64,000 nt of DNA from Thalassospira sp. TSL5-1 (GTDB taxonomy: Bacteria > Pseudomonadota > Alphaproteobacteria > Rhodospirillales > Thalassospiraceae), in contig NZ_KV880643.1 in NCBI RefSeq assembly GCF_001907695.1, forward strand, positions 1-64,000, written 5' to 3'. Under the pieces are notes generated by a model that was given only the letters and a program-made list of their open reading frames with translations, was not told the origin of the DNA and did no database searches. The position numbers were made by a program, and so were the translations under genes. This document shows, piece after piece, positions 28,466 to 54,717 of this stretch (its first letter is position 1; every line of letters begins with the position of its first letter).

Positions 28466-28948
28466 TTAGGGTTCCGCAGAATATTCCAGCATCGCCTCTC
28501 GAATATCGTTCGGAATTGGGATTGGGCGATGCGTATCCAGCGAAGTTGCCACAGTCGTAAAATATCCACGCAGGGCCTCATTGTCACCCAACATCGCATG
28601 TAGCACGAGTTGATAAGACTTGTTGCCGACTTTGTCGACCATTACAAAAATTTCGACCTCGTCGCCCATTTTGCAAGGTGCGAAAAATGTAGCTGCGGCG
28701 TTGACATAGCCGATCCCTGTTCGGCGGGGCCCGATAATTTCATAATAGTTGATGCCAAGTCGGCTGCAGAACCACTCCTCAATAACCTGGTTAAACACAT
28801 TAAAGAATTCCGGTGTGTAAACGATACCTGCCGGGTCGCATTGTCCGTGCCTGAAAGTGACTTTTCCAGACCATAATCCTGACGGTAAGTCATTGCGAGA
28901 CAAGGCAATAGGACGCGCATCGACGGAATTTTGTGATTGTTTGTTCAT
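28466..28948 (-). CDS. Acyl-CoA thioesterase, 4-hydroxybenzoyl-CoA type
   Basis: The 160-residue protein has the hot-dog-fold motif RHGQCDPAGIVYTPEFFNVF, in which Asp is the catalytic residue of 4-hydroxybenzoyl-CoA thioesterases, followed by the long helix NQVIEEWFCSRLGINYYEII. Its start overlaps the iorB stop by 4 bp, so the substrate is very likely the aryl- or arylacetyl-CoA made by IorAB. That would be indole-3-acetyl-CoA in the standard reading or anthraniloyl-CoA if the complex oxidises isatinate. Confidence 0.82.
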   Translation of the reverse strand: MNKQSQNSVDARPIALSRNDLPSGLWSGKVTFRHGQCDPAGIVYTPEFFNVFNQVIEEWFCSRLGINYYEIIGPRRTGIGYVNAAATFFAPCKMGDEVEIFVMVDKVGNKSYQLVLHAMLGDNEALRGYFTTVATSLDTHRPIPIPNDIREAMLEYSAEP

Positions 28949-32688: not shown

Positions 32689-32715
32689 AAATTCCTCCAA
32701 AAAATATATGGTAAT

Positions 32716-38823: not shown

Positions 38824-38824
38824 C

Positions 38825-39601
38825 ATGACCGGAATCCAGAACAATATGCACAAGACCATCAAGATCGGTCAGATCGTTCCATCGTCAAACCTGACGATGG
38901 AACGGGAAATCCCGGCCATGCTGCGTGCACGCGAAACGGTCCTGCCCGAGAGGTTTTCCTTCCATTCTTCACGCATGCGCATGAAGAAGGTGACAAAGGA
39001 AGAACTTGCCGCAATGGATCGCGACAGCGACCGCTGTGCCCTTGAGCTTTCCGACGCATCGGTGGATGTCATGGGCTATGCCTGTCTTGTCGCAATTATG
39101 TCGATGGGCAAGGGGTATCATCGTGAAAGCCAGAAGCGTCTTCATCAGGTGACAGTCGAGAACGGCCATGCTGCGCCGGTTGTCAGTTCTGCCGGGGCAT
39201 TGGTGGATGGCCTGCATCTGATGGGGGCCAAACGGATTTCCATTGTGACGCCATATATGCGTCCGCTGACCAATCTGGTGGCAGAATATATCGAGGCTGA
39301 AGGTATCGAAGTTTCGGATAGTATCGCGCTGGAAATTCCCGATAACCTTGAAGTCGCGGCACAGGACCCTTTGAATCTGACCACAATTTACAAGCAGGTC
39401 AATCTGAAGAATATTGATGCACTTGTTTTGTCTGCCTGTGTTCAGATGCCGTCGCTTGCGGCCATTCAAAAGGTTGAAGACGAATGTGGCATTCCCGTGC
39501 TGTCTGCGGCAGTTGCCACAACGCACCAGATGTTAAAAGAACTGGGGCTTGAAGCTCGGGTTCCTGGTTGCGGTACTCTTTTGTCAGGCAAATACGCCTG
39601 A
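38825..39601 (+). CDS. Maleate cis-trans isomerase (Asp/Glu racemase superfamily)
   Basis: The 258-residue protein has the maleate isomerase hallmarks QIVPSSNLTMEREIPAMLRA, DVMGYACLVAIMSMGKGYHR with the first catalytic Cys, and DALVLSACVQMPSLAAIQK with the second. It converts maleate to fumarate, feeding the TCA cycle. The ATG at 38825 is 1 bp after the FAH stop and was preferred over an earlier in-frame start inside the upstream gene. It ends the first block of the operon; two hairpins follow. Confidence 0.88.
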   Translation: MTGIQNNMHKTIKIGQIVPSSNLTMEREIPAMLRARETVLPERFSFHSSRMRMKKVTKEELAAMDRDSDRCALELSDASVDVMGYACLVAIMSMGKGYHRESQKRLHQVTVENGHAAPVVSSAGALVDGLHLMGAKRISIVTPYMRPLTNLVAEYIEAEGIEVSDSIALEIPDNLEVAAQDPLNLTTIYKQVNLKNIDALVLSACVQMPSLAAIQKVEDECGIPVLSAAVATTHQMLKELGLEARVPGCGTLLSGKYA

Positions 39602-39661: not shown

Positions 39662-39819
39662 AAACCTCACGCGCCATCCTGTCTCACCTTATCCCGAAGA
39701 ACGCCTGCCTTTCAGGGGAATATTGCGTTCCGGGCGCCCCGCGACACCAAGATTTCCATCGGCCTCATCATGAAAGTTGCATTGAACTATAAGCAACCAA
39801 CGAACAGGGAGTGTTTCTG

Positions 39820-40848
39820 ATGTATGCAAGGTTTTTTAAAACGGTAGCCGCAATTTCAATTACCACATTGATTTCGCTGCCAGCCAAGGCTCAGGACGTT
39901 ACGCTGACCATTTCCACCTGGGCACCGCCAACGCATGGGGTTAATTCCCAGATGTTTCCGGATTTTATCCGGCGCATAGAGGAAGCGACTGACGGGCGGG
40001 TTACTGCTGAAATGAAATACAATTTGGCACCGCCAGCCGCCCAGGCCGATATTATCGCGGACGGAATAGCGGATATTACCTGGATTACCCACAATTATAC
40101 GCCCGGCCGGTTTCCTTCTGCCTCAATGGCGGAACTTCCCGGCTTTGGGGGCAGCTCGGCGGACTTTGCCGTTGCTTATTGGCGAACCTTCGACAAATTT
40201 TTCCGCCAGGCCAATGAACATCGCGGTCTTAAGGTTCTGGCCGTTTATGCGCATGGCTCCGGGTTGTTGCATTCCGCGACCAAGGTGGAACGTCTTGACC
40301 AGATTGCTGGCATGAAACTGCGCATTGGCGGTGGTGTTGCCGGTATGGTCGGTGATGCCCTTGGTGCGTCCGCTATTAATGTTCCGGCCCCCCGTGTATA
40401 CGAAACCCTGGCATCGCACGCTGCCGATGGGGTCATGATGCCAATGGAATCAAAACTGGGCTTCCGTCTCACAGAAGTAGCACCGCATAGCTTTGATATG
40501 CCGTCCGGTTTTTATCGCACGTCGATGGCAACGGTCATGAACCAGGATGCCTTTGATCGCCTCAGTGAACAGGATCAGGCCGCGCTGAATAAATTGTTCG
40601 GCGAGGAGCTTTCGCGCATTAGCGGTGCTTTCTGGGATGATTTTGATGCGGCGGGGTTGGCCGCCCTGAGAAATGCGGGCGACAATACGCTCACTATGGC
40701 GTCGGAAGCGGACCAGGCTGTTTGGCACAAAAAAGCCGAGAAAATTATCAACCAGGTTATCAGCGATATTTCTGATACCGGCATCGATGGCAGGGCAGCC
40801 TACGACTATTTCCGTGACGAATTTGAAACCCTGAAAGCGGGACAATAA
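39820..40848 (+). CDS. TRAP transporter substrate-binding protein, DctP family
   Basis: The 342-residue protein has a signal peptide (cleavage after about residue 24, SLPAKAQ) and the TRAP-type solute receptor fold: TLTISTWAPPTHGVNSQMFP near the N-terminus and LRIGGGVAGMVGDALGASAI with the arginine that binds a carboxylate ligand. It delivers an organic acid to the DctQM partners encoded next. The ATG at 39820 has AGGGAG 8 bp upstream. Ligand is probably an aromatic carboxylate, by context. Confidence 0.88.
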   Translation: MYARFFKTVAAISITTLISLPAKAQDVTLTISTWAPPTHGVNSQMFPDFIRRIEEATDGRVTAEMKYNLAPPAAQADIIADGIADITWITHNYTPGRFPSASMAELPGFGGSSADFAVAYWRTFDKFFRQANEHRGLKVLAVYAHGSGLLHSATKVERLDQIAGMKLRIGGGVAGMVGDALGASAINVPAPRVYETLASHAADGVMMPMESKLGFRLTEVAPHSFDMPSGFYRTSMATVMNQDAFDRLSEQDQAALNKLFGEELSRISGAFWDDFDAAGLAALRNAGDNTLTMASEADQAVWHKKAEKIINQVISDISDTGIDGRAAYDYFRDEFETLKAGQ

Positions 40849-40851
40849 GTC

Positions 40852-41376
40852 ATGGTCGCGAAGTCTGAAAAATCCATGCTGACGGTGCTGTCAGACCGGC
40901 TTGCACTGGGGCCTGCACGTATTGCAGGCCTGGCCCTCATGTTCCTGATGGTCTTGACGTTCGTCGATGTCATTTCGCGAAGTGTATTTTCTGCGCCTCT
41001 CGGTTTTTCGGCCGAGGTAACAGAAATGCTGATGGCGGTCATCGTGTTCGCGGCCCTTCCCATGACAATATTGAAAGATGGCCACATCGTTGTCGACCTC
41101 ATGGATGGGTGTTTTGGACGCCGTGCAGCCTATATTCGGGATACGCTTGTCGATGTGATCTGCCTTGTTGCCTTGGCCTTTCCGGCTGTTCGTATCTGGA
41201 CATTGGGAACACGCAGCAAGGGCTATAACGAGGTCACGGAAATCCTTGGCTGGCCGCAATATTATCTCATCTATTTCGTGTCTTTTGCGCTTGTCGTCTG
41301 CTGTTTTGTTTACGTGCTGCGCATCCTGTTGCGGTTCCAAAAAGGCAGGTACCCGGGAGAGGAATTATCATGCTGA
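40852..41376 (+). CDS. TRAP transporter small permease, DctQ family
   Basis: The 174-residue protein has four hydrophobic helices (about residues 20-40, 55-75, 95-115 and 135-158) and the DctQ pattern ISRSVFSAPLGFSAEVTEML. It is 3 bp from dctP and overlaps dctM by 7 bp, so the three TRAP genes are one unit. Confidence 0.87.
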   Translation: MVAKSEKSMLTVLSDRLALGPARIAGLALMFLMVLTFVDVISRSVFSAPLGFSAEVTEMLMAVIVFAALPMTILKDGHIVVDLMDGCFGRRAAYIRDTLVDVICLVALAFPAVRIWTLGTRSKGYNEVTEILGWPQYYLIYFVSFALVVCCFVYVLRILLRFQKGRYPGEELSC

Positions 41377-42683
41377 TTTCGATCTTGGGGTTCCTTGCCG
41401 TTTTGGCTTTGGCCTTTCTGCGTATTCCGATTGCCTTTTCTATGGGACTGGTCGGTTTTTTCGGCACAGCTTACCTGACCAGCATCAATGCTTCGCTGTC
41501 ATTGACCGGCAGGCTGATTATTGACACCGCCCAAGATTATGGACTGTCGGTGGTGCCTTTGTTCATCCTGATGGGCCTGTTTGTGAATAAAGGTGGCCTT
41601 TCCCGCGAGCTTTACCGTGCGGCTTATGTCTTTTTGGGGCATATGCGCGGTGGTTTGGCAATGACCACCATTGCTGCCTGCGCCGGGTTTTCCGCCATTT
41701 GTGGTTCGTCATTGGCAACGGCGGCAACCATGTCGAAAGTGGCCATGCCGGAGATGCGGCGACTGGGATATGCTGACCGGCTGTCTACCGCCTCCATTGC
41801 GGCTGGTGGCACTTTGGGCATTCTTATTCCGCCCAGTGTCATTCTGGTGATTTATGGCCTGATGACGGAAACCAGCATTGGCAAACTGTTTGTTGCGGGC
41901 ATTATTCCTGGTGTTCTGGGGGTGATTTTTTATCTGATCGCGGTGCAGTATGTTGTGCGCCGTGATCCGGATGCCGGGCCGGCAGGCGAACGGAGTACAT
42001 GGCGGGAACGTTTGCAGGCCGTGCGCGATATCTGGCTGGTTCTGGCGCTTTTTGTTCTTGTCATTGGCGGGCTTTACGGGGCGTTCGATTTTTACCCCTT
42101 AAACCTGACCTTTTCGCCGACCGAAGCCGCCGGCATGGGGGCCGCGGGTGCATTTTTGATTGCGCTGGCCCGGCGGCAACTGAATCTGCGTTCCATCACG
42201 GAGACACTCACCGAAACAGCGGTGACGTCGGCCGGGCTGTTTGCCGTGCTGATCGGTGCATGGATGTTCTCGAATTTTGTCAATCTGGCCGGTTTACCCG
42301 AGGCATTGCGCACATTTGTTCTGGATATCGGTGTGACACCTCCCATCGTGATGATTGTGATCATCTTGATTTACATCGTCCTGGGATGTGTTTTTGAAAG
42401 CCTGTCGATGCTGCTTTTGACCGTTCCCATCTTCTTCCCATTGGTCACGTCGCTTGGTTTCGACCCGGTCTGGTTTGGCATTATCGTCGTTGTTGTTACC
42501 GAAATCAGCCTGATTACCCCGCCGGTCGGTTTGAACGTGTTCGTCCTCAAAGGCGTTGTCCATGATGTCTCTACGGCAACAATTTTCAAAGGCGTAACAC
42601 CCTTCTGGATTGCAGATATCCTGCGGCTGATCCTTTTGCTTTGGTTCTCCGGAATCGTTCTGTACCTCCCCAACATGATGTGA
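41370..42683 (+). CDS. TRAP transporter large permease, DctM family
   Basis: The 437-residue protein has about twelve hydrophobic segments and the DctM signatures AGFSAICGSSLATAATMSKV, GTLGILIPPSVILVIYG and LITPPVGLNVFVLKGVV. It is the ion-coupled transport subunit of the TRAP system. Confidence 0.92.
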   Translation: MLISILGFLAVLALAFLRIPIAFSMGLVGFFGTAYLTSINASLSLTGRLIIDTAQDYGLSVVPLFILMGLFVNKGGLSRELYRAAYVFLGHMRGGLAMTTIAACAGFSAICGSSLATAATMSKVAMPEMRRLGYADRLSTASIAAGGTLGILIPPSVILVIYGLMTETSIGKLFVAGIIPGVLGVIFYLIAVQYVVRRDPDAGPAGERSTWRERLQAVRDIWLVLALFVLVIGGLYGAFDFYPLNLTFSPTEAAGMGAAGAFLIALARRQLNLRSITETLTETAVTSAGLFAVLIGAWMFSNFVNLAGLPEALRTFVLDIGVTPPIVMIVIILIYIVLGCVFESLSMLLLTVPIFFPLVTSLGFDPVWFGIIVVVVTEISLITPPVGLNVFVLKGVVHDVSTATIFKGVTPFWIADILRLILLLWFSGIVLYLPNMM

Positions 42684-42689: not shown

Positions 42690-43241
42690 ATGGACAAACT
42701 TAATGCACGGTTAAAAACATTCCAGGAATTGTTCAGAAGAGACCGGCGACCGGGAGACCTTGTATTTGCCTGTATGTTTCTGCTGTTTTGCGTTTTTCTT
42801 CTGGCAAATCTGGATGATCAGGTGAAATGGGTGAAAAACACCGCCCTGGTCGCGGAGCCTGCCTTCTGGCCAACGCTATCCCTGATTGGAATGAGCGTGT
42901 TTGCCGTATTGCACCTGATCGGTTCCCTGTCGTCTCCCAGGATCTACGGACGTTTGAAAGAATTCACGTTATGGGTGCGATCTTTGGAATACGTTGCGTA
43001 TTTTCTGGTTTACGTCAATGTCGTGCCGATCATTGGCTATCTTCTATCGACGCTGCTGTTTGTGTTGTTCCTGACCTTTCGCCTTGGGTATCGCCGGTTT
43101 CAGGTCTTTGGAATATCTGCGTTATTTGCGGTTGCAGTTGTTTTGATCTTTCGGGCCGGTCTGGAAGTCAAAATCCCGGCCGGGCAGATTTATGAATATC
43201 TGCCCGACTGGATCCGATCCTTTGCAATGATTAACCTGTGA
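42690..43241 (+). CDS. Tripartite tricarboxylate transporter TctB-like membrane protein
   Basis: The 183-residue protein has four hydrophobic helices and a TctB-like layout (DLVFACMFLLFCVFLLANLD, then VVPIIGYLLSTLLFVLFLTF). Its place directly before a TctA gene fixes its role as the small subunit of a second carboxylate importer. It lies 6 bp after the TRAP dctM gene, an unusual direct junction of two different tripartite transporters. Confidence 0.8.
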   Translation: MDKLNARLKTFQELFRRDRRPGDLVFACMFLLFCVFLLANLDDQVKWVKNTALVAEPAFWPTLSLIGMSVFAVLHLIGSLSSPRIYGRLKEFTLWVRSLEYVAYFLVYVNVVPIIGYLLSTLLFVLFLTFRLGYRRFQVFGISALFAVAVVLIFRAGLEVKIPAGQIYEYLPDWIRSFAMINL

Positions 43242-43248
43242 GAACCCG

Positions 43249-44790
43249 ATGATTGATGCTTTTTTAGGAGGATTTCACATATTGATGAACTGGCAGGTGC
43301 TTGCGGCCCTGCTGGTTGGATCCATTGGCGGGGTGATCATTGGGGCCATCCCGGGGGTGGGTGCGGCTGTTGCCATCGCCATTCTTCTGCCCGCAACATT
43401 TGGTTTTGAGCCTATTGTCGGCTTGACCATGTTGTTGGGGATTTACGGCAGTTCGATGTATGGCGGTGCCATCCCGGCCATTTTGTTAAATACGCCTGGT
43501 ACGCCTGTCAATGCACTGACAACCTATGACGGTTATCCGATGACCAAACGCGGCGAGGCGCAAAGGGCCTTGTCTTTGGCGTATTCCGCCAGTTTCTTTG
43601 GGGGTGTCTTTGCCATTGTGTGCCTGATCATTCTGGCACCTGTTCTGGCAATGATTGCGCCTCATTTTGGCAGTCGCGAGATATTTCTGGCCGCACTATT
43701 AGGCATCATTCTCGTGATTCTGGCGCATCGCGGGCAGATCATGGCTGCCGGGATGATGGCGTTCTTCGGTATTTTTCTCAACACGATTGGGTTGGAGCCG
43801 GCAAAATACACCCAGCGTTTTACCTTTGGACAAACCTGGCTGACAGGTGGCGTGGATTTGATTGTTCTTGTGTTGGGGCTTTTCGCCATCAGCCAGGCGC
43901 TTTTCCTGATGCTTGAAAAAGACCACACACCACATGCCGAGCGTGTTCAAAGCAATATGCTGGGCGGGTTTGCCGAATTGCTTGGGTTAAAGCGCGTTGC
44001 ATTTGTTGCGAGCAGCTTTGGCGTCATGATGGGCAGCATTCCCGGGGTAGGGGAATTTACCGCCCAGTTCTTGTCTTATACATATGCGCAAAAAACCTCG
44101 AAAAAACCGGAGGCTTTTGGGAAAGGTTCGCCTGAAGGGCTTGTTGCATCCGAGGCTGCAAATAATGCGGTTCCGCCTGCGGCAATGATTCCCCTGCTTG
44201 CACTTGGTATTCCCGGCGAGGCGCTGACAGCCATGATGCTTTCGGTTTTCTATGTGCATAATGTGATTCCGGGACCGCAATTGTTTCAGGGCAAAATGGA
44301 TTTTGTGATTGCCCTGTATATTGCGATGTTGTTGCTGAATCTGATTGTCATTGTCTTCTTGCTGTTTTCGACAAACATGCTTTTGCGCATCACCCAGATT
44401 CCGACCCGATATCTTGGTTTCGTGATTATGACGCTCAGTTTTGTCGGAGTTTATTCCTTGCGCAATTCCCCTGTCGATTGTGCAATTGCCGCAGGGTTCG
44501 GCGTTTTTGGTCTGATTCTGAAGCGATTGAACCTGCCGATTGTGCCCATCATTCTGGGTGTTGTTCTTGGTGGGATTATGGAGGTCAAACTGCGCAGTGC
44601 AATGGCCCGTGTCAGCAGTCCCATTGACTTTGTTGATCGTCCAATATCGGCCATTCTCATGCTGATCATTCTCTTTGTGATTTTTCAGCATATCCGCGCA
44701 CTTCGCTTCGAGCATAAACAGCGCCAGCTAAGAAAGCAAAATGGCGAAGATCCATCAGGGGAGTCCGGCGTTGCCCCCGAAGGGTTCTGA
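43249..44790 (+). CDS. Tripartite tricarboxylate transporter TctA-family permease
   Basis: The 513-residue protein has the two TctA repeats, GAIPGVGAAVAIAILLPATF and MGSIPGVGEFTAQFLSYTYA, plus LLGIYGSSMYGGAIPAILLN and about eleven membrane segments. It is the transport subunit of the TTT system. The cognate binding protein is probably the TctC encoded on the other strand at 45269-46207. Confidence 0.9.
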   Translation: MIDAFLGGFHILMNWQVLAALLVGSIGGVIIGAIPGVGAAVAIAILLPATFGFEPIVGLTMLLGIYGSSMYGGAIPAILLNTPGTPVNALTTYDGYPMTKRGEAQRALSLAYSASFFGGVFAIVCLIILAPVLAMIAPHFGSREIFLAALLGIILVILAHRGQIMAAGMMAFFGIFLNTIGLEPAKYTQRFTFGQTWLTGGVDLIVLVLGLFAISQALFLMLEKDHTPHAERVQSNMLGGFAELLGLKRVAFVASSFGVMMGSIPGVGEFTAQFLSYTYAQKTSKKPEAFGKGSPEGLVASEAANNAVPPAAMIPLLALGIPGEALTAMMLSVFYVHNVIPGPQLFQGKMDFVIALYIAMLLLNLIVIVFLLFSTNMLLRITQIPTRYLGFVIMTLSFVGVYSLRNSPVDCAIAAGFGVFGLILKRLNLPIVPIILGVVLGGIMEVKLRSAMARVSSPIDFVDRPISAILMLIILFVIFQHIRALRFEHKQRQLRKQNGEDPSGESGVAPEGF

Positions 44791-45268: not shown

Positions 45269-46207
45269 TCAGTTGTTGTTCATGTCGGCAATGTTTTTGA
45301 GAATTGCGCGATCATTGGTGATTTGAGCGGCGGATTCTTCAGGGTTTTTCCAATAAATCAGGGCTCCGGTTTGCTCGGATAATTTCTTTGCCGCATCACT
45401 TTTCATGACTTCTTCGGCAACAGCAATGATCTTGTCACGCGCTTCCTGCGGCGTTTCGCGCCGGACAAACAAACCGGTCCAGGTGCCAAGTTTCAGCGCG
45501 GGTTTAAGCTCGCCAAGCGTGGGCACATCTGGCAATGACGGGATACGTTTTTCGGTGACGGCGGCCAAAGGCGTAATTTTATCAAGGCAGGGTTTTACAA
45601 GCTGTAAGGTCGTATTGATGACATCGGCGTCACCCGACGCAAGGGTGTTGCAGTCCAGTGCGTCAAACGCCGCCTGGCCGCCCCATTTGAAACCAAATGC
45701 CGATTGGGTTGCCAGCGTGATTTCGGTGGGGGTTGCACCAGCACCGAAATGGCCGACGACCAATTTGTGGTTCTGTGCGTAGGCTGCCAACTCGTCCATG
45801 TTCTTGTAGGGCGCATCAGCCGATGTTGCCAGAATGAAGGGATAGGTTACAAAAATACCCAGCGGTTCAAACGGATCGTCAGCCAGGGCAGGAATGCCAA
45901 TCGTCGGCCCGACAAGCGGGATATCGAGGACAAACGAACCGATTGTATAGCCGTCAGCTGGTGCATTGGCGACGGCGACTGCGCCCGGAAAGGGACCACC
46001 CCCACCGCCAGGTTTATTCACGACAGCAGCGGGCACGCCATAGGTTGCCTGGAACTTATCCGCGATCATGCGGGTCAGAATATCCTCAAGATCGCCGGGG
46101 GGGAACGGCACCACAAATTCCACGGGTTGTTCAGGGTATTCCGCAAAGGCCGGTTGGGCTGCCAGCGTGAACAGGGCAGCAGATACAAGAAGTGAGAACT
46201 TATTCAT
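45269..46207 (-). CDS. TctC-family tripartite transporter binding protein
   Basis: The 312-residue protein has a signal peptide (cleavage after about residue 22, PAFAEYP) and the TctC/BugT fold: PVEFVVPFPPGDLEDILTRM, VNKPGGGGGPFPGAVAVANA and ITPLAAVTEKRIPSLPDVPT. It binds a carboxylate in the periplasm for TctAB. It is transcribed divergently from the Rieske operon, and the shared gap contains the same operator-like element as the iorA region, which links its substrate to that pathway. Confidence 0.88.
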   Translation of the reverse strand: MNKFSLLVSAALFTLAAQPAFAEYPEQPVEFVVPFPPGDLEDILTRMIADKFQATYGVPAAVVNKPGGGGGPFPGAVAVANAPADGYTIGSFVLDIPLVGPTIGIPALADDPFEPLGIFVTYPFILATSADAPYKNMDELAAYAQNHKLVVGHFGAGATPTEITLATQSAFGFKWGGQAAFDALDCNTLASGDADVINTTLQLVKPCLDKITPLAAVTEKRIPSLPDVPTLGELKPALKLGTWTGLFVRRETPQEARDKIIAVAEEVMKSDAAKKLSEQTGALIYWKNPEESAAQITNDRAILKNIADMNNN

Positions 46208-46403: not shown

Positions 46404-47348
46404 ATGCCGTCCATCGGATACGAGGTTGTGACCACCTCCAGTGAAACCCGGGATATCAAGCGGATCGTGATGAAGCCCACGGCACCGGTTCCGATAGCGT
46501 GGTCGGCGGGTGCACATATACGGGTGACTCTGACAGATGGCAGCAGTCGTGCTTATTCGCTTTTGCGGCTTCCGGGCCTTCCAGCCGGGCATATCGCCCT
46601 TGGGGTGTTGCGTGAAAAGGAAAGCAAGGGCGGATCAAAATTCATGCACGCTCTTAAACCCGGTGACAAAGTGCAACTTTCCCACCCGGCCAATCATTTT
46701 GAACTGGGCAATCATGCCGGGCCATCTGTTTTGATCGCGGGGGGGATTGGCATTACGCCCATCCTGTCAATGGCAGCCGAACTTGTCCGCTCCGGCCGCG
46801 AATTCGAGGTTCATTATGCAGGGCGTGCCGAAGGGATGCTCGCTTTTGTCCCTGAAATGCAGGAAATCTGTGGCTCTCGGTTAAGCCTGCATTATGACGA
46901 TCAGCCCAGTGCGATGAATGTGGGCAAAATCCTCAGGGATGCCCCGGACGAGGCACATGTTTATTTCTGTGGGCCTGCGGGCATGATTGAGGCCGTCCGG
47001 GCGACCGCATCGGAATTGGGCTGGCCGGGCGAACGGGTTCATTACGAACTGTTCTCTGCCGATGTGGCCGCGTCGGAGAACACCGCATTTGATGTGGAAA
47101 TCCACAGTACCGGCCAGATTGTTCACGTTCCTGCGGACATGACAATTATTGAAGCCCTCGAAGAGGCCGGCCTGGACCCCCTTTACGATTGTCAGCGTGG
47201 GGATTGCGGCATTTGCCAATGCACCGTGATCGAAGGAATTCCCGATCATCGGGATGTGATCCTGACCGATGCCGAAAAGGCCGAAAACAACGTCATGCAG
47301 ATCTGCGTTTCGCGTTCCAAAACCGCAAAACTGGTCATTGAAATCTGA
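46404..47348 (+). CDS. Rieske oxygenase reductase, phthalate-dioxygenase-reductase type
   Basis: The 314-residue protein has a flavin-binding barrel (SSRAYSLLRLPG, about residues 1-95), an NAD-binding domain (VLIAGGIGITPILSMAAEL and HVYFCGPAGMIEAV) and a C-terminal plant-type [2Fe-2S] ferredoxin with YDCQRGDCGICQCTVIEG and MQICVSRS. It passes electrons from NADH to the oxygenase encoded next. The order flavin-NAD-ferredoxin is that of the VanB/PDR class. First gene of the plus-strand indole/aromatic operon. Confidence 0.9.
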   Translation: MPSIGYEVVTTSSETRDIKRIVMKPTAPVPIAWSAGAHIRVTLTDGSSRAYSLLRLPGLPAGHIALGVLREKESKGGSKFMHALKPGDKVQLSHPANHFELGNHAGPSVLIAGGIGITPILSMAAELVRSGREFEVHYAGRAEGMLAFVPEMQEICGSRLSLHYDDQPSAMNVGKILRDAPDEAHVYFCGPAGMIEAVRATASELGWPGERVHYELFSADVAASENTAFDVEIHSTGQIVHVPADMTIIEALEEAGLDPLYDCQRGDCGICQCTVIEGIPDHRDVILTDAEKAENNVMQICVSRSKTAKLVIEI

Positions 47349-47365
47349 TTATAGAGGAGGACGTC

Positions 47366-48712
47366 ATGGATCGTTATCGCGGGAATCCCCAGGCCATTGC
47401 CGATTTGATCAAGGGCTATGCCGTACATCGGGATGTTTATGTGGACCCGGAAATCTTTGAATTGGAAATGGAGCAGCTATTTCCAAATTCATGGGTTTAT
47501 ATCGGTCATGAAAGCCAGTTGAAAAATACCGGCGATTTCATAACCTCGAAAATCGGAAATCAGCCGATCCTCGCTTCGCGTCATCGCGATGGTCAGATTT
47601 ACGTATTGCATAATCGCTGCCCGCATAAAGGCGTTAAAATATCATCCGAACCGTGCGGAAATACCGGCAAATTTTTTCGCTGTCCCTATCATGCGTGGTC
47701 TTTCAAAACCGATGGGTCGCTTTTGGCCATCCCCTTGAAAAAAGGCTATGAAGGGACCGGCTTTGATGCGGACCAGGCCTCAAAGGGACTGCCAAGGATC
47801 AGGAATGTCAGAATATATCGGGGGCTGATTTTTGTGCGCCTTGCGGATGAAGGCCTCAGCTTTGAAGATTATTTTGGCGACTCTCTTTCCACAATCGACA
47901 ACATGGCGGATCGGTCCCCGCAAGGGGAGTTGGAGATTATCAGCCAGCCTATCCGGTATATGCACAGTTGCAACTGGAAGATGCTGGTCGATAATCAGAC
48001 CGATACCTGCCACCCGATGGTTGCGCATGAAAGCTCGGCAGGGACTGCGGTGAATGTGTGGGAGCGCGCAAAGGCGGCAAATCCCGATATGGACCCGCCG
48101 ATGGCGGTTCAGCTGTATGCACCGTTCATGAGCCCGTATGAATTCTACGAAGGGGCGGGCATCCGTGTCTGGCCCAATGGGCATGGTCATTCCGGTGTTT
48201 CGGGTTCCATCCATCAGGATTACGAGGATGTAGATGGCTATCTGCAAATGATGGTCGAAGCCTACGGGGAAAAACGCGCCCACGAGATCCTGGGCGATGT
48301 CCGCCACAATACGATTTATTTTCCAAACATCATGGTCAAGGGGCCGGTGGCAATTTTGCGCCATTTTATTCCGCTGGGCGTGAATAAAACCCTGGTTGAA
48401 AGCTGGGTATTCAAGCTCAAGGGCGCGCCGGACAAGCTCTATGAGCGCGGGTTGATGTACAACCGGTTCATTAACGCCCCGACGTCAATCGTCGGACATG
48501 ACGATCTTGAGATGTATGAGCGCGCGCAGGAAGGCCTGCAATCGGATGGCAACAAATGGGTCAATCTGCATCGCTTATGGGATGAGAATGAACCTGAAGA
48601 AGCCACCGATATCGTCAACGGGACGTCGGAACGCCAGATGCGTAACCAGTTTTATGCCTGGAAGAAATTCATGATTCAAAACATGGATACAAAAGCGGGG
48701 ACGGCAGGATGA
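47366..48712 (+). CDS. Aromatic ring-hydroxylating dioxygenase, alpha subunit
   Basis: The 448-residue protein has the Rieske cluster motifs NRCPHKGVKI and FRCPYHAWSFKTDG (about residues 85-120) and the mononuclear iron site DNQTDTCHPMVAHESS (about residues 210-225). Together with the beta subunit and reductase it inserts oxygen into an aromatic ring. The downstream CoA ligase and isatin-hydrolase genes suggest indole-3-acetate as substrate, giving a dioxindole-3-acetate-type product; this matches Rieske oxygenases in known indole-acetate loci. Confidence 0.9.
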   Translation: MDRYRGNPQAIADLIKGYAVHRDVYVDPEIFELEMEQLFPNSWVYIGHESQLKNTGDFITSKIGNQPILASRHRDGQIYVLHNRCPHKGVKISSEPCGNTGKFFRCPYHAWSFKTDGSLLAIPLKKGYEGTGFDADQASKGLPRIRNVRIYRGLIFVRLADEGLSFEDYFGDSLSTIDNMADRSPQGELEIISQPIRYMHSCNWKMLVDNQTDTCHPMVAHESSAGTAVNVWERAKAANPDMDPPMAVQLYAPFMSPYEFYEGAGIRVWPNGHGHSGVSGSIHQDYEDVDGYLQMMVEAYGEKRAHEILGDVRHNTIYFPNIMVKGPVAILRHFIPLGVNKTLVESWVFKLKGAPDKLYERGLMYNRFINAPTSIVGHDDLEMYERAQEGLQSDGNKWVNLHRLWDENEPEEATDIVNGTSERQMRNQFYAWKKFMIQNMDTKAGTAG

Positions 48713-49182
48713 AGCGCGAAGATCTTGTGGATTTTGTCTATGACGAGGCCCACACACTTGACCAGATGGAATGGGAAACCTGGCTGGCCCTGTTTGCGGA
48801 GGATGGCCGCTACTGGATGCCGCTGGAATGGCAGCAGGAAGATCCAATCCTTCAACCCTCACTCATGTATGAAGACCGTTTGTTGTTAACTGTTCGCGTG
48901 GAACGTCTGGCCGGCGAGCGGACATTCAGTCAGAAGCCCAAAAGCCGTTGTCATCATCTTCTCGAACGTCCCAGGGTTATCTCGATGGGGGAAGATGACG
49001 GTGTGTACAAGGTGCGCACCTCGTTTCTGTATACCGAAACACGGGGTGATCTTCTGGACCGGTATTCGGGCTGGATCGGTCATGAACTGGTTGAAATAGA
49101 CGGCGCACTGAAAATCAGGCTCAAACGCATTGATCTGATTAATTTTGATGCCCCCTTCAGCAACATTCAGCTCTTTATTTGA
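48709..49182 (+). CDS. Ring-hydroxylating dioxygenase, beta subunit
   Basis: The 157-residue protein has the SnoaL-like cone fold of oxygenase beta subunits: VYDEAHTLDQMEWETWLALF, FAEDGRYWMPLEW and RVERLAGERTFSQKPKSRCH. It starts 4 bp inside the end of the alpha gene (ATGA overlap) and supplies the structural subunit. Confidence 0.88.
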   Translation: MKREDLVDFVYDEAHTLDQMEWETWLALFAEDGRYWMPLEWQQEDPILQPSLMYEDRLLLTVRVERLAGERTFSQKPKSRCHHLLERPRVISMGEDDGVYKVRTSFLYTETRGDLLDRYSGWIGHELVEIDGALKIRLKRIDLINFDAPFSNIQLFI

Positions 49183-49189
49183 GGCAGGT

Positions 49190-50803
49190 ATGACAACGAA
49201 ATCTGTTTATTCCCGCTTTGTGGAGACGGCTGAAAGACGGGGTGAAGCACCGTTTTTGCATGTTCTTGAGGAAACGGCCGGCATTTACGGTATTTCCGCT
49301 GGCGATATTTCCTACGCCGAAATGAGAAGGCGGGTTGAAGACTGGCGAAAACGTTTTGCCGATGCGGGTTATGGCGCCGGGCACCGGATTGGCCTGTTGC
49401 TGCAAAACCGCCCGGTTTTTATTGAAATCTGGCTGGCTTTGAATGCGCTGGGGGCTTCGGTCGTGCCCATTAATCCCGATTTGCGCCTGGCAGAATTGGA
49501 ATATCTGGCCGAACATTCGGAAATGATTTTGGCCATCGTGCTGCCGGAGCGGCAGGCGGAAATGAAGGCTGCCGTGGCCAATGCCGGGCTGCCGGTTCCC
49601 GTATTGACACCCGATAGTCCCCTTTCTCCTGCATTGACCCCCGTCCTTCAAGATTATGTTCCCGACACGGCGACCGAATGTGCCCTGCTTTATACATCAG
49701 GGACAACCGGCCGCCCAAAAGGCTGCATTCTCAGCAATGAATATTACCTTCATTCCGGCGACTGGTATGCCCAAACAGGGGGCCACATCAGTTTACGTCG
49801 CGATTGTGAACGGATGCTGACACCGCTTCCGGTATTTCACATGAATGCGATGGCCGTTTCCGTACCCGCCATGATCACTTTGGGCGGATGTATGATCATG
49901 CTGGATCGTTTTCATCCGCGTAGCTGGTGGGAGTCTGTGCGCAAAAGCGGTGCGACTATCGTTCATTATCTGGGGGTTATGCCGTCGATGCTGATGGGGA
50001 TGGAACCTTCACCAGACGATATTAACCATAACGTGCGGTTTGGCTTTGGCGCAGGGGTCGACAAAAAACTTCATGCCGTTTTTGAAGAACGTTACGGTTT
50101 TCCCCTGATCGAAGCCTGGGCATGCACGGAAAGCGGTTCTGGTGGGGTTATCTGCGCGTATGAGGAACCGCGCAAGGTTGGTACCTCGTGTTTTGGGCGG
50201 CCATGTGACAATGTCGCCGTGCGGATCATCGATGATGCAGGCAATGATGTTGATTTTGGTATGCCAGGCGAATTACTGGTGCGCCGGGCGGGGGATAACC
50301 CGCGATATGGGTTCTTTTCGGGTTATCTGAAAAATCAGCAAGCCACGGATGAGATTTGGCAGGGCGGCTGGTTGCATACCGGCGATATTGTTCTGCAGGA
50401 TCAGGACGGATCTTTGCATTTTGTGGATCGCAAGAAAAACGTGATCCGCCGTTCAGGGGAAAATATTGCTGCGGTAGAGGTGGAATCCATTCTCAACCGG
50501 CATCCCGAGATTAAAATTTCTGCCGCCGTTGCCGCACCGGACGAGGTCCGGGGGGACGAGGTTGCCGTGTTCCTGATTCTTGATGGTGTCAAAGGGGATG
50601 CTGCCAAGGCAGAGGAGATCGTCTCCTGGGCCCTGGACCAGATGGCCTATTACAAAGTTCCTGGCTGGATTGCGTTTACCGACGAACTGCCTTTGACATC
50701 GACGCAGAAGATCCTGCGGGGCCAGTTAAAAGATCTTATGACGGCAACCTTTAAGGTAAGTGGCTTTATTGATACCCGTCATCTGAAGGGACGCAGGGTC
50801 TGA
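49190..50803 (+). CDS. Acyl-CoA synthetase (AMP-forming)
   Basis: The 537-residue protein has the phosphate-binding loop LLYTSGTTGRPKGCILS, the substrate-side FGFGAGVDKKLHAVFEERYG and EAWACTESGSGG, the hinge GWLHTGDIVLQDQDGSLHFV and a C-terminal lysine in LTSTQKILRGQ. It activates a carboxylic acid as its CoA thioester. The ATG at 49190 is 7 bp after the beta-subunit stop, with GAGGCAGG before it. The proposed substrate is dioxindole-3-acetate. Confidence 0.88.
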   Translation: MTTKSVYSRFVETAERRGEAPFLHVLEETAGIYGISAGDISYAEMRRRVEDWRKRFADAGYGAGHRIGLLLQNRPVFIEIWLALNALGASVVPINPDLRLAELEYLAEHSEMILAIVLPERQAEMKAAVANAGLPVPVLTPDSPLSPALTPVLQDYVPDTATECALLYTSGTTGRPKGCILSNEYYLHSGDWYAQTGGHISLRRDCERMLTPLPVFHMNAMAVSVPAMITLGGCMIMLDRFHPRSWWESVRKSGATIVHYLGVMPSMLMGMEPSPDDINHNVRFGFGAGVDKKLHAVFEERYGFPLIEAWACTESGSGGVICAYEEPRKVGTSCFGRPCDNVAVRIIDDAGNDVDFGMPGELLVRRAGDNPRYGFFSGYLKNQQATDEIWQGGWLHTGDIVLQDQDGSLHFVDRKKNVIRRSGENIAAVEVESILNRHPEIKISAAVAAPDEVRGDEVAVFLILDGVKGDAAKAEEIVSWALDQMAYYKVPGWIAFTDELPLTSTQKILRGQLKDLMTATFKVSGFIDTRHLKGRRV

Positions 50804-51978
50804 TGGCAAAACAAAAACCATATGATGGTGTGGTTATCTGCGCGCCGGTGACGGTGCCCTATATGCGCTATTCTGACAAAACGGCGCATTGGTGGGCGGG
50901 GGCGGCCCTGGCAGAACTGGCCGGGCAAACCGGGTTGGGGCCGGATGATATTGACGGGTTCTGTTTTGCAAGTTTTTCTGCTGTGCCCGACACGGTTGTG
51001 GGTATGGTCCAGCATTTGGGTCTTAGTCCAAGATGGATGGATCATATTCCGACAGGCGGGGCAAGTGGCGTCATGGCCTTGCGCCGGGCGGCACGCGCGG
51101 TCCAGGCCGGAGATGCGGAGATTGTTGCCTGTGTTGCCGCCGACACCAACCAGATAGACAGTTTCCGGCAAACGCTTGTCGGGTTTTCCCGGTTTTCGCA
51201 GGATGCGACCTATCCCTATGGTTTTGGCGGACCCAATGCCACCTTTGCCCTGATAACCGATAACTTCATGCGGCAATATGGCCTGACCCGCGCAGACTTT
51301 GCCAAACTCTGTATCGCGCAACGAACAAATGCCCTGTCCAATCCCTATGCCCTGATGAAAAAGCCGCTGACCCATGATCAGTATATGAAGGCCCGGGCGA
51401 TTGCCGATCCCGTGCATCTTTTTGACTGTGTCATGCCCTGCGCTGGTGCCGAGGCCTTTATTGTCACGACACCGGAAAAAGCCGGGCAACTGGGTCTGTC
51501 CACTGCGCGTCTGGCCGCGACAATAGAACGTCATAATGCCTTTGCTGAAGATGCGGTTCAGACCCGTGGGGGCTGGGCACGCGATATTGACGATCTGTGG
51601 CAGGCGGCCGGTTGTGGGCCGCAGGATATCGATATGCTGCAGGCCTATGATGATTATCCGGTGATCGTTGCCATGCAGCTGGCCGATTTGGGATTTTGTG
51701 ACAAACCAGCCTTGCCGGACTTTATCGCGCAAAATGATTTTACCCTGACAGGATCCTTGCCCTTGAATACCAATGGTGGGCAGCTTTCTGCAGGGCAGGC
51801 GGGTGCTGCCGGTGGATTTCAAAACGTAACCGAAGGTCTGCGACAGGTCCTGCATTGTCCGTTGGGCGGTCAGGTGCCCCATGCAAGACGGGCGCTGGTG
51901 TCGGGATTTGGCCTGGTGAACTATGACCGGGGTGTGTGCACTGGTGCTGCCATACTGGAACAGGAGGTGTTGTTATGA
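50803..51978 (+). CDS. Thiolase-fold protein lacking the nucleophilic cysteine; probable retro-aldolase
   Basis: The 391-residue protein is of the SCP2-thiolase/Ltp2 type. The usual active-site Cys block reads IPTGGASGVMALRRA, with Gly in place of Cys; the GH motif is replaced by AGQAGAAGGF. A tyrosine-rich stretch MLQAYDDYPVIVAMQL is kept, and a Cys remains only in RGVCTGAAILE. This is not a normal thiolase active site. Thiolase-fold aldolases such as steroid-degrading Ltp2 lack thiolysis chemistry and need a DUF35 partner, and the next gene encodes a DUF35 protein. The proposed reaction is splitting dioxindole-3-acetyl-CoA into isatin and acetyl-CoA. The start overlaps the ligase stop (TGATG). 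Confidence 0.8.
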   Translation: MAKQKPYDGVVICAPVTVPYMRYSDKTAHWWAGAALAELAGQTGLGPDDIDGFCFASFSAVPDTVVGMVQHLGLSPRWMDHIPTGGASGVMALRRAARAVQAGDAEIVACVAADTNQIDSFRQTLVGFSRFSQDATYPYGFGGPNATFALITDNFMRQYGLTRADFAKLCIAQRTNALSNPYALMKKPLTHDQYMKARAIADPVHLFDCVMPCAGAEAFIVTTPEKAGQLGLSTARLAATIERHNAFAEDAVQTRGGWARDIDDLWQAAGCGPQDIDMLQAYDDYPVIVAMQLADLGFCDKPALPDFIAQNDFTLTGSLPLNTNGGQLSAGQAGAAGGFQNVTEGLRQVLHCPLGGQVPHARRALVSGFGLVNYDRGVCTGAAILEQEVLL

Positions 51979-53213
51979 CCGCGCCATTGACCCCTCCCAA
52001 ACGCAAGGATCCTTTGGTCAGGACCCGCGCCGGGCACGTACCGCCAGGATTGCGCAGCCGTGCCGCAAGGGCGATGGCGGTACGGGCAGGCCAGGGAAGC
52101 TTTGTACTTCAGGTTTGCGACAGGTGCGCTGTCGTCACTTATCCCCCACGGGATCGTTGCCCCCGTTGCTGGGGTGAATTGAACTGGAAGGATCAACCCC
52201 GGGGCGCGGTTGTTGAAGCTGAAACAACGGTGCGGGCAACAATTGACCTGTTTTTTCGCGAACATCTGCCCTGGCGGATTGGCTCTGTTCGGCTTGATGC
52301 CGGACCAATGGCAATTGTGCATTTGCATGGCGATGTCAAACAGGGCGACCGCGTAAGGATGGAATTGCGACTTGATCGGGGCGGTGCCCCCGCGCTGTTC
52401 GCCCTGCCAGAAAAGGAAACCCCGAACATGGCTGATGATCCGCAATTACGCGAATTTTCTGCTGACCCCAAATTTCGCCGGGTTCTTGTAACCGATGGGC
52501 GCAGCCCGATTGGTCAGATCGTGGCAAAGGCACTTTTGAAAAGTGGGGCGCAAACGGTGTTTTTGGGCAATGCCGAACCGTTGATGCGCTATCCCGGACA
52601 GGATGATATCGAGGCTATAGACGGTATTGAACCGGTTGCCCTGAACCTTGCCCATACACGCAGTTGTCAGGAACTGGCAGCACAAATGGGGGGCAGGATC
52701 GACATTATCGTTAATACAGCAGCTTTCGCCCGGCCTGGTGGGGTTGGTTTTGACAGTAAATTGACCGACCTTCAAACAGGGCTGGATATCGAGGTTATGG
52801 GGCTGATGCGTCTGGCGCAGGCGTTTACACCCGCAATGTCCGGGCGGTCGGATGACGGGGTTAATTCTGCGGTTGCCTTCGTCGATATTGTTTCAGTTCA
52901 TGGGCTGACGGGCAAAACCGGCTTTGCTGGTTCTGCAGCGAGTGCGGCTGCACGTTTGTCATTGATTTCCGGTCTGCGCGGTGAAATCGCCAAAGCAGGC
53001 ATCCGGGTTATGACCGTTCTGACCGGGCCGGTTGATGATGACTGGCATCAAAATGTCCCACCCCCAAAAACGGCACCAGAACAAATTGCCAAAGCCGTGA
53101 TCGAAACACTGGTTAAGGGACAGGAGACCATCTGTGCGGGAGATGTTGCCAGGGATGTTTTATCTCGCTGGCAGGCAGATCCGTTATTGACAATTCGGGA
53201 GGAAAACCAATGA
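51975..53213 (+). CDS. DUF35 (zinc ribbon/OB-fold) protein fused to a degenerate SDR domain
   Basis: The 412-residue fusion has an N-terminal DUF35 domain (about 1-135) with zinc ligands VCDRCAVVTYPPRDRCPRCW and an OB-fold, and a C-terminal Rossmann domain (about 150-405) of short-chain dehydrogenase type. In the latter the glycine motif reads VTDGRSPIGQ, and where Tyr-x3-Lys is expected the sequence is FAGSAASAAARL, so both catalytic residues are lost. The SDR part is therefore probably structural. The DUF35 part should pair with the thiolase-fold enzyme. The ATG at 51975 overlaps the upstream stop (ATGA) and has CAGGAGG before it. Confidence 0.82.
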   Translation: MTAPLTPPKRKDPLVRTRAGHVPPGLRSRAARAMAVRAGQGSFVLQVCDRCAVVTYPPRDRCPRCWGELNWKDQPRGAVVEAETTVRATIDLFFREHLPWRIGSVRLDAGPMAIVHLHGDVKQGDRVRMELRLDRGGAPALFALPEKETPNMADDPQLREFSADPKFRRVLVTDGRSPIGQIVAKALLKSGAQTVFLGNAEPLMRYPGQDDIEAIDGIEPVALNLAHTRSCQELAAQMGGRIDIIVNTAAFARPGGVGFDSKLTDLQTGLDIEVMGLMRLAQAFTPAMSGRSDDGVNSAVAFVDIVSVHGLTGKTGFAGSAASAAARLSLISGLRGEIAKAGIRVMTVLTGPVDDDWHQNVPPPKTAPEQIAKAVIETLVKGQETICAGDVARDVLSRWQADPLLTIREENQ

Positions 53214-54001
53214 ACCAACAATTGCTTTCAAGCCTGGCTGGCGCACTGAGCTCGGGCCAAATTCGTGTCATTGATCTGACCAATACGCTCAGTCCGGAAT
53301 TTCCGGTGATCGTTCTGCCGCCCGAATTTGGACAATGTATGACGTTCAAGATGGAGGAAGTGTCCCGTTACAACGAAAATGGTGCGGCGTGGTATTGGAA
53401 CAATATCTCGATGAATGAGCATACGGGCACGCATTTCGATGCCCCTGCCCATTGGGTTACAGGCCGGGATTTACCGTCCAATACGGTGGATGCCATTCCC
53501 GTCCAAAAGTTTGTGGCCCCAGTCGTGGTTATTGATATTTCAATGGAATCTGCAGCAGATGCCGATTTTGTGGTAACACGGGACTTTCTGGAAAACTGGG
53601 AAAAGAAGAATGGTTCCATTCCCCCACAGCACTGGATCGCCCTTCGCACAGATTGGTACAAGCGTGTTGGAACACCAGAATATCTGAACCTTCAGGAAGA
53701 CGGGGCGCATTCTCCGGGGCCGGATGCGGGGGCGGTGGAATTCATGGTTCATGAGCGCGACTGTGTTGGTCTTGCCGTTGAAACCGTGGGCACAGATGCC
53801 GGTCAGGCCTTTCATTTCAATCCGCCACTGCCTGCACATTCGATTTTGCATGGCAATAACCGGTTCGGCCTGCAATGTCTGACCAACCTGGATAAATTGC
53901 CAACTTTCGGCGCGATGATTGTTGCCTGCCCGCTTAAAATAGAGGGCGGTTCGGGCAGCCCCTTGCGTGTTATCGCCCTGGTTGACGGAGAAGGCGCATG
54001 A
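53210..54001 (+). CDS. Isatin hydrolase (cyclase/kynurenine-formamidase-like family)
   Basis: The 263-residue protein has the metal-binding signature NEHTGTHFDAPAHW and the surrounding VIDLTNTLSPEFPVIVLPPE, HSPGPDAGAVEFMV, ETVGTDAGQAFHF and NRFGLQCLTNLDKLPTFGA, which closely fit bacterial isatin hydrolases rather than kynurenine formamidases. It would open isatin to isatinate (2-aminophenylglyoxylate) using Mn2+. It overlaps the DUF35-SDR stop by 4 bp, placing it immediately after the predicted isatin-forming step. Confidence 0.85.
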   Translation: MNQQLLSSLAGALSSGQIRVIDLTNTLSPEFPVIVLPPEFGQCMTFKMEEVSRYNENGAAWYWNNISMNEHTGTHFDAPAHWVTGRDLPSNTVDAIPVQKFVAPVVVIDISMESAADADFVVTRDFLENWEKKNGSIPPQHWIALRTDWYKRVGTPEYLNLQEDGAHSPGPDAGAVEFMVHERDCVGLAVETVGTDAGQAFHFNPPLPAHSILHGNNRFGLQCLTNLDKLPTFGAMIVACPLKIEGGSGSPLRVIALVDGEGA

Positions 54002-54717
54002 AGACAACGCTGATCACTGGTGGCAATTCGGGCATCGGGGCAGCAATTGCGGGGCTGTTGCTGTCTCGTGGTGAAAAGGTTGTGTCTCTTGGCCTGGAAT
54101 TGCCGGACGCCAAGCATGATAATCTGTTTGGTTATACCGCTGATTTGACAGATAGTGCCAGCACGGCAGAGGTTGCAGCACAGATTGCTGCAACCCACCA
54201 GATTGATGCACTGGTGCATAATGCCGGCATGATTCTTCCCAATTTGCTGTCCGATGCCGTACCGCAAGATATTTTGACATTGGCCCAATTGCATTTGGCT
54301 GCGCCAATGGCCCTGACCCAGGCCGTCTTATCCGGTATGGAAGAACGTGGTTCGGGGCGAATTCTGTTTATTTCCTCCCGTGCGTCAATGGGCATGCCGA
54401 CCCGATCGGCCTATTCGGCAACCAAGGCGGGTGTGCATGGCATGGCACGAACCTGGGCGCTGGAACTTGCCCCCAGGGGTATTACGGTCAATGTCATTGC
54501 CCCAGGTCCGGTGCTGACCGAAAATTTCTGGGGCATTGTCCCCAAGGATGGCGAATTACAGGACAAAATTGCCAGTACTGTGCCTGTCAAGCGTATTGGT
54601 ACGGCAGATGATATTGCCAATGCTGCAGGTTTTTTCCTCGATGACAAGGCCAGTTTCATCACGGGACAGGTGCTGTTTGTTTGCGGGGGAACCAGCCTCG
54701 GCGGCCAATCCATATAA
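53998..54717 (+). CDS. Short-chain dehydrogenase/reductase
   Basis: The 239-residue protein is a complete classical SDR: cofactor motif LITGGNSGIGAAIAG, LVHNAGMI, catalytic Ser in ILFISSRASM and Tyr-x3-Lys in SAYSATKAGVHGMA. Unlike the SDR half of the fusion upstream, all catalytic residues are present. Its role is not obvious; it could interconvert a hydroxyl and a keto group in the indole pathway, for example dioxindole and isatin. It overlaps the isatin hydrolase stop by 4 bp and ends the operon. Confidence 0.85.
   Translation: MKTTLITGGNSGIGAAIAGLLLSRGEKVVSLGLELPDAKHDNLFGYTADLTDSASTAEVAAQIAATHQIDALVHNAGMILPNLLSDAVPQDILTLAQLHLAAPMALTQAVLSGMEERGSGRILFISSRASMGMPTRSAYSATKAGVHGMARTWALELAPRGITVNVIAPGPVLTENFWGIVPKDGELQDKIASTVPVKRIGTADDIANAAGFFLDDKASFITGQVLFVCGGTSLGGQSI

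Follow-up and report, generated by a model that had tools for sequence, protein, structure and literature searches.

The iad pathway, which decides auxin control by plant-associated bacteria, has been described in Variovorax paradoxus CL14/CL014, where iadC encodes a reductase, iadD and iadE the Rieske oxygenase subunits, and iadF an acyl-CoA synthase, and where iadG, iadH, iadI, and iadJ are labeled ketothiolase, alcohol dehydrogenase, kynurenine formamidase, and dehydrogenase, respectively (PMC12633357). Variovorax knockouts of iadCDE, iadF, iadG, iadH, iadI, and iadJ lowered anthranilate, and side-chain removal was assigned from annotation, since intermediates went undetected (PMC12633357, a 2025 preprint). 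Ruegeria pomeroyi DSS-3, which carries all eight genes in the same order on its megaplasmid (SPO_RS20465-20500), is among the strains reported to degrade indole-3-acetate (IAA) (PMC9613470). The iac pathway, leading from IAA to catechol, shares the starting compound and the dioxindole-3-acetate intermediate with iad (PMC9613470) but has a different end product. Here, we analyze an iad operon of Thalassospira sp. TSL5-1, located at 46404-54717 of a 64,000-nucleotide stretch (positions 1-64,000 of contig NZ_KV880643.1; hereafter, the window). We read it, with a probability of roughly 0.8, as a horizontally distributed IAA operon of the iad type in which IadG and a DUF35 domain would perform a retro-aldol step and the short-chain dehydrogenase/reductase (SDR) half of IadH would be a pseudoenzyme.

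This region is a complete-looking copy of the known auxin degradation cluster. The open reading frame (ORF) list holds eight closely spaced plus-strand ORFs here (Table 1), and Pfam agrees with the families that the original prediction had named for them. The genes had also been said to overlap, which holds for five of the seven junctions, the other two being gaps (in order: a 17-bp gap, a 4-bp overlap, a 7-bp gap, a 1-bp overlap, and three 4-bp overlaps). The alpha subunit matched the IadD structures 9o71 and 7yls at an E value of about 3e-165, with the next solved match at 3e-40, and its residues C85, H87, C106, H109, D213, H216, H221, and D379/D380 were invariant in all six aligned rows. 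The IadCDE genes are followed by iadF-G-H-I-J in order, with IorAB and two MarR genes nearby (27486-32700).

Identity to the R. pomeroyi proteins ranged from 64 to 81% across the eight genes, reaching 81% for the IadD alpha subunit and 68% for IadC (SPO_RS20500). Fourteen flanking genes, from MarR to TctC (SPO_RS22340-20430 in R. pomeroyi), are also common to both genomes at 51-90%, but in the window TRAP genes separate the maleate isomerase from TctB, which is not the case in R. pomeroyi, where the iad and flanking blocks stand about 10 kb apart with an insertion sequence transposase among the intervening genes. The eight gene types and their order are likewise shared with Variovorax (iadC-J, K2), whose published core ends with the ABC solute-binding gene iadK2 (PMC12633357), whereas the operon in the window is flanked by TRAP and tripartite tricarboxylate transporters and by a gentisate-type lower module. 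As both the pathway and the gene order were already known, the eight-gene set itself is not novel, and what we add is a proposal for the mechanism of the least understood step of the pathway.

The solved structure most similar to IadG was 9myr (Sal), both by sequence (E = 2.4e-45) and by fold (E = 1.2e-31, using a predicted model with a mean predicted local distance difference test score [pLDDT] of 86.6), while 6ok1 (Ltp2-DUF35) ranked third in the sequence and fold tables, counting the chains of 7yvy once in the latter. The 9myr entry is Sal-Shy(DUF35), a bile acid retro-aldolase that requires its DUF35 partner and Tyr302; Tyr302 of a YDCY motif serves as the base and Cys304 as the acid, Gln347 and Gln352 assist, and a Gly occupies the position of the nucleophilic Cys of thiolases (PMC12329534). 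In our alignment, a YDDY motif of IadG falls on the YDCY of Sal, placing Asp284 where Sal has Cys304. The motif, and Asp284 with it, was present in all 47 aligned rows, as was Gln332; Gln327 was found in 46, the remaining row having an X. (Of 49 hits, one was dropped for coverage and two as duplicates; several IadG and IadH rows, L136-L144, were brought in by an IadG query.) IadG had been described as a Cys-less protein, which is too broad, given ten cysteines in total, but no row has a Cys in residues 82-92, the segment of the thiolase nucleophile (0/47).

IadG thus resembles Sal-Shy and Ltp2-ChsH2 in its thiolase fold, its DUF35 partner (here by gene context, the adjoining gene carrying DUF35), the Tyr of a YDxx motif, a CoA-ester substrate with a beta-hydroxyl group, and the replacement of the nucleophilic Cys, which is a Gly in these aldolases (PMC12329534). 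It differs in having YDDY rather than YDCY or YDHF and in its non-steroid substrate, and the DUF35 of iad is either fused to a degenerate SDR or stands alone, whereas that of the steroid aldolases is fused to a MaoC-type hydratase domain. IadG has neither the Cys that is the general acid of Sal nor the corresponding Tyr344 of Ltp2, whose place aligns with the IadG segment around Gln332. Since its general acid would instead be an Asp, we classify IadG neither as a Sal nor as an Ltp2 but as a protein that may work in a similar way. The chemistry of the substrate points the same way. C3 of dioxindole-3-acetate carries a tertiary hydroxyl group that makes conversion to a beta-ketoacyl-CoA impossible, so a thiolase would have no such substrate; dioxindole-3-acetyl-CoA is a beta-hydroxyacyl-CoA, which suits an aldolase.

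The proposed partner, IadH, joins a DUF35 zinc ribbon/OB part to an SDR half. The glycine motif of the SDR half (TGxxxGxG) was broken in 36 of 36 rows, and a complete YxxxK was present in none, while in IadJ, which served as a control, both motifs were intact in all 78 rows. All four zinc Cys residues, by contrast, were found in 34 of the 36 IadH rows. These rows came from 43 hits, of which six were dropped for coverage and two as duplicates; five of the six coverage drops were Alcaligenaceae proteins, later found to consist of DUF35 alone. Indeed, in all nine Alcaligenaceae loci (L087, L088, L090, L091, L093, L094, L102, L104, and L105), IadG and IadJ are separated by a gene for a lone DUF35 protein of 130-140 amino acids, with a CxxC...CxxC pattern and no SDR half. 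The universal motif loss and these SDR-less genes speak against IadH as an alcohol dehydrogenase. A fold search with the IadH model (mean pLDDT, 88.7) gave SDR proteins only, and no DUF35, among the 50 rows listed, so the DUF35 assignment rests on sequence. Most likely, the SDR half is a pseudoenzyme or scaffold, and the role of IadH is to partner the aldolase rather than to act as a dehydrogenase. Because of the Sal match, the YDDY motif, the missing nucleophilic Cys, the motif loss in IadH, and the DUF35-only genes of Alcaligenaceae, we propose that IadG and DUF35 probably form an aldolase that splits dioxindole-3-acetyl-CoA into isatin and acetyl-CoA, rather than a ketothiolase acting with a reductase.

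Several observations weigh against this proposal. Named thiolases are among the matches of IadG (7yvy, second by fold; 4u4e, second by sequence; and BbsB, 7pxp), and Cys209 of IadG is invariant (47/47 rows). The C304S, C304A, and C304H variants of Sal are inactive, and no tested precedent for an Asp at that place was found in the literature consulted. In IadH, 12 of the 36 rows keep the Tyr of YxxxK and 3 keep the Lys, and the best SDR match, 5u4s, is titled NADP binding even though the alignment places a Leu at its Tyr position, such that IadH may yet bind a cofactor. In addition, a compound of the formula C8H7NO2, which is that of dioxindole and has two H more than isatin, accumulates without iadI (PMC12633357). 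C8H7NO2 is not what a plain retro-aldol step yields, and an extra reduction would be needed, which also qualifies the route set out in the original prediction; the compound could be accounted for if other enzymes reduced isatin in a side reaction.

The accumulation of C8H7NO2, the published annotation of IadG as a ketothiolase and IadH as an alcohol dehydrogenase (PMC12633357), and the detection of dioxindole in Variovorax cultures (PMC9613470) all favor an alternative in which these two proteins remove the side chain reductively, yielding dioxindole that is then oxidized to isatin. We consider this unlikely, as IadG has no nucleophilic Cys in the relevant segment of any row, IadH lacks the SDR cofactor and YxxxK motifs throughout, and the SDR half is missing altogether from the Alcaligenaceae loci. 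A tertiary carbon, moreover, cannot form the beta-keto group on which a ketothiolase would act. Among the open-access papers searched, we found none joining iad with an aldolase, and the two found to name IadG/IadH did so without that word. If the aldolase proposal is true, the side-chain step gains a clear chemistry and IadH needs its DUF35 part only, a smaller cassette could suffice for engineered auxin-degrading strains, and DUF35-dependent aldolases extend beyond steroids.

Second IadG/IadH-like pairs adjoin iad in two Sulfitobacter loci and one Phyllobacterium locus (L034, 17437-19000; L035, 17420 onward; and L040, 17464-19886). The second IadG copies show 55-57% identity and keep YDDY, the IadH copies show 35-43%, and the pairs are possibly aldolases for other substrates.

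An isatin hydrolase had been named in the operon, and IadI bears this out. Its closest match was isatin hydrolase A (5nnb, E = 2e-104); 5nnb, 5nmp, and 4j0n, at E values of 2e-104 to 1e-79, share its metal motif, and we saw no function-relevant difference from them, whereas the kynurenine formamidase 4cz1 was remote (E = 1e-4). The motif, HxGTHxDxPxH, was present in 37/37 rows, with 1 of 37 rows dropped before counting. A second Cyclase family protein, 29% identical to the isatin hydrolase of the operon, is encoded elsewhere in the genome (G000:C2:411053-411580).

The originally predicted route, from IAA through dioxindole-3-acetate and its CoA ester to isatin plus acetyl-CoA and then isatinate, fits the gene set as well as the descriptions in PMC12633357 and PMC9613470. 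Gene order was thought to follow this route; as the first step in Variovorax involves a monooxygenase plus the SDR IadJ (PMC12633357), however, this SDR, encoded last in the operon, would act second. IadCDE would thus oxidize the indole ring, after which IadJ would oxidize the hydrated product of the Rieske oxygenase, giving dioxindole-3-acetate; these two assignments follow those published for Variovorax. IadF would then form the CoA thioester of dioxindole-3-acetate. This beta-hydroxyacyl-CoA would undergo retro-aldol cleavage to isatin and acetyl-CoA by IadG, which the DUF35 domain of IadH would hold; Tyr282 of YDDY would serve as the base, and Asp284 is the candidate acid. IadI would finally convert isatin to isatinate. 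Beyond the gene content, order, relatedness, motif conservation, and predicted folds observed here, we infer each of these reactions in Thalassospira sp. TSL5-1 from homology.

We next considered how the operon is distributed, using the best 80 of 407 loci from a genome scan, a set that leans to Bradyrhizobium (38 Bradyrhizobium-type loci and 42 others). All eight genes were above thresholds in 26 of the 42 other loci, with the same order and strand in 23 of these 26, indicating that the association of the genes is more than chance. At an E value of 1e-100, a search of 59 other relatives, including 28 from the same genus, did not find the IadD alpha subunit, and it was present in 28 plasmid records, including those of Sulfitobacter, Roseibium/Labrenzia, and Ruegeria; because of this pattern, horizontal transfer of the operon is likely. 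By sequence composition within the window, the iad stretch was indistinct from its right-hand flank.

No Bradyrhizobium-type locus (0/38) had IadG, IadH, or IadI within the fetched stretch. We rejected the idea of a Bradyrhizobium iad variant without these three genes, as IadG was found elsewhere in 5/5 Bradyrhizobium genomes searched (L052 was left out); in the L043 genome, IadG-IadH-IadI and a hydroxylase are on the same contig, ~12-20 kb past the fetched stretch. One Bradyrhizobium-type iad locus (L045) is in a record titled Frankia sp. RB7, a label that may be wrong.

The pathway had been called complete-looking from IAA to isatinate; the operon does look complete for these steps, and the window also holds genes for steps beyond isatinate. 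IorAB would convert isatinate to anthraniloyl-CoA, a CoA-dependent 5-hydroxylase and the thioesterase would turn this into 5-hydroxyanthranilate, and the gentisate-type cupin, the fumarylacetoacetate hydrolase (FAH) family protein, and the maleate isomerase would take 5-hydroxyanthranilate to pyruvate and fumarate. Conversion of 5-hydroxyanthranilate to gentisate has been proposed for Nocardia (Cain 1968, cited in PMC4539516). The cupin was linked to iad in 53 of the 80 loci (37/38 Bradyrhizobium type, 16/42 others), and in five Alcaligenaceae loci (L087, L091, L093, L104, and L105), a hydroxylase gene lies between those of the thioesterase and the cupin. The L087 hydroxylase scored 1296 bits on NF006101, the model for salicylyl-CoA 5-hydroxylase/oxidoreductase (cut-off, 1078). 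The genome of Thalassospira sp. TSL5-1 itself encodes a 5-hydroxylase relative (57%) on a different contig (G000:C6:141590-143860; 1311 bits). Adjacent genes encode an enoyl-CoA hydratase family protein, an acyl-CoA dehydrogenase, and, at 359 bits and so slightly under the cut-off of 375, a benzoate-CoA-ligase-like protein; this neighborhood also fits the known 2-aminobenzoyl-CoA route. The lower route could therefore plausibly run either through 5-hydroxyanthranilate or gentisate via the cupin or through 2-aminobenzoyl-CoA via the other cluster, and the choice is not fixed. We lean, with more caution than for the operon itself, toward the combination of a non-steroid IadG/DUF35 retro-aldolase with a Tyr-Asp pair, a conserved pseudo-SDR that Alcaligenaceae lack, and a linked lower pathway from IorAB to fumarate.

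Serotonin would offer a different explanation for the cupin, in which the aminotransferase and aldehyde dehydrogenase turn serotonin into the natural substrate, 5-hydroxyindole-3-acetate, and the cupin opens the product 5-hydroxyanthranilate with no need of a hydroxylase. Genes for the aminotransferase, aldehyde dehydrogenase, cupin, FAH, and maleate isomerase do stand beside iad, with the same set in R. pomeroyi; the scanned genes of the window included no aromatic hydroxylase, and a search of Ruegeria ANG-R, which carries the cupin and FAH along with iad, did not turn up a match to the CoA-dependent 5-hydroxylase. The placement of the Alcaligenaceae hydroxylase and the 57% relative in the TSL5-1 genome nevertheless weaken the case for serotonin as the main substrate, and a match to the hydroxylase was present in 12 of 13 iad genomes searched. 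For R. pomeroyi, moreover, IAA degradation has been reported, as has IAA binding by its MarR protein 3CDH (PMC9613470), and our literature search on serotonin turned up no such gene cluster; we consider this explanation quite unlikely. A different aryl-acetate substrate for the eight genes, or no use of them for IAA in Thalassospira sp. TSL5-1, where all steps are assigned by homology only and none of the 28 other same-genus genomes searched has the alpha subunit at an E value of 1e-100, is very unlikely given the isatin hydrolase in the operon, its colinearity with verified iad loci, and the closeness of the alpha subunit to that of R. pomeroyi.

Table 1. Genes of the iad operon and its flank in the window, with the matches on which the names are based
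Feature	Position	Strand	Basis
MarR regulator 1	27486..27968	-	Pfam MarR; 51% to R. pomeroyi SPO_RS22340
MarR regulator 2	27970..28446	-	Pfam MarR_2; 3boq, E = 6e-43; 51% to SPO_RS20370
4HBT-type thioesterase, possibly with anthraniloyl-CoA as substrate	28466..28948	-	Pfam 4HBT_2, 1.5e-14
IorB-like 2-oxoacid oxidoreductase subunit (iadB type)	28945..30516	-	NF006179, 690 bits (cut-off, 348)
IorA-like thiamine-diphosphate subunit (iadA type)	30523..32700	-	Pfam TPP_enzyme_C; R. pomeroyi, 83%
Aldehyde dehydrogenase	32804..34318	+	Best model phenylacetaldehyde dehydrogenase StyD, 712 bits (below cut-off of 850)
Class III (omega) aminotransferase	34336..35706	+	Pfam Aminotran_3; 5lh9, E = 9e-162
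Nitrilase	35709..36743	+	8uxu nitrilase, E = 8e-64; Nit6803 model, 230 bits (below cut-off of 503)
Gentisate-dioxygenase-type double cupin	36761..37885	+	3bu7, E = 8e-225; gentisate model, 288 bits (below cut-off of 442)
Fumarylacetoacetate hydrolase family protein	37906..38823	+	Pfam FAA_hydrolase, 4e-72
Maleate isomerase	38846..39601	+	4fq7 maleate cis-trans isomerase, E = 2e-103
TRAP transporter DctP, DctQ, DctM	39811..42683	+	Pfam DctP and DctQ
Tripartite tricarboxylate transporter TctB, TctA	42690..44790	+	Pfam TctA, 1e-130
TctC solute-binding protein	45269..46207	-	Pfam TctC, 7e-19
IadC-type oxygenase reductase, flavin/NAD domain and C-terminal 2Fe-2S	46404..47348	+	Pfam Fer2 and NAD_binding_1
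IadD-type Rieske oxygenase alpha subunit	47366..48712	+	Pfam Rieske and Ring_hydroxyl_A
IadE-type oxygenase beta subunit	48709..49182	+	Pfam Ring_hydroxyl_B; R. pomeroyi, 80%
IadF-type acyl-CoA ligase, proposed substrate dioxindole-3-acetate	49190..50803	+	Pfam AMP-binding, 6.6e-55; R. pomeroyi, 77%
IadG thiolase-fold protein, proposed retro-aldolase	50803..51978	+	Pfam Thiolase_C_1
IadH, DUF35 zinc ribbon/OB fused to degenerate SDR	51975..53213	+	Pfam zf-ChsH2, OB_ChsH2_C, and adh_short
IadI isatin hydrolase	53210..54001	+	Pfam Cyclase
IadJ, active-looking SDR	53998..54717	+	Pfam adh_short_C2

Some flanking assignments carry qualifications. The IorA-like protein scored 268 bits on TIGR03336, below the cut-off of 651. 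The start of the maleate isomerase was picked inside ORF 38762-39601 to match the 251 amino acids of its R. pomeroyi counterpart, DctM (ORF 41370-42683) was assigned by its position and a 43% relative without a Pfam scan of its own, and TctB was called from a 68% match to the annotated R. pomeroyi TctB. MarR regulator 1, a possible counterpart of the IAA-binding regulator IadR, matched 3e6m (E = 9e-43) and 7kym (E = 1e-37), and more weakly the IAA-binding R. pomeroyi protein 3cdh (E = 2e-8); 7kym is listed among MarR structures in PMC9613470.

Additional entry points to IAA could exist for tryptamine, indole-3-acetaldehyde, and indole-3-acetonitrile, by way of the aminotransferase, the aldehyde dehydrogenase, and the nitrilase. 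We also considered the nitrilase as a maleamate amidase of the ring cleavage branch, a role we disfavor because the protein matches true nitrilases (8uxu) and was not found, at 55% identity, in 13 loci with the cupin and FAH (12 after leaving out the edge-cut L033). An entry for indole-3-acetonitrile would be the more likely role.

The MarR pair directly adjoins minus-strand genes for cytochrome bd oxidase subunits II and I and two CydDC-like ABC ATPase/membrane proteins (21164-27400). Farther along are acetone carboxylase-type genes (gamma subunit and hydantoinase B and A families; 15504-20678, minus strand), whose best plasmid match was Acidibrevibacterium fodinaquatile (76%), and a sigma-54 activator gene (13035-14924). 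On its other side, iad adjoins an iron uptake block (55059-63543) that encodes an ECF sigma factor, FecR, a TonB-dependent receptor, an MFS protein, a siderophore-interacting protein, and a periplasmic binding protein.

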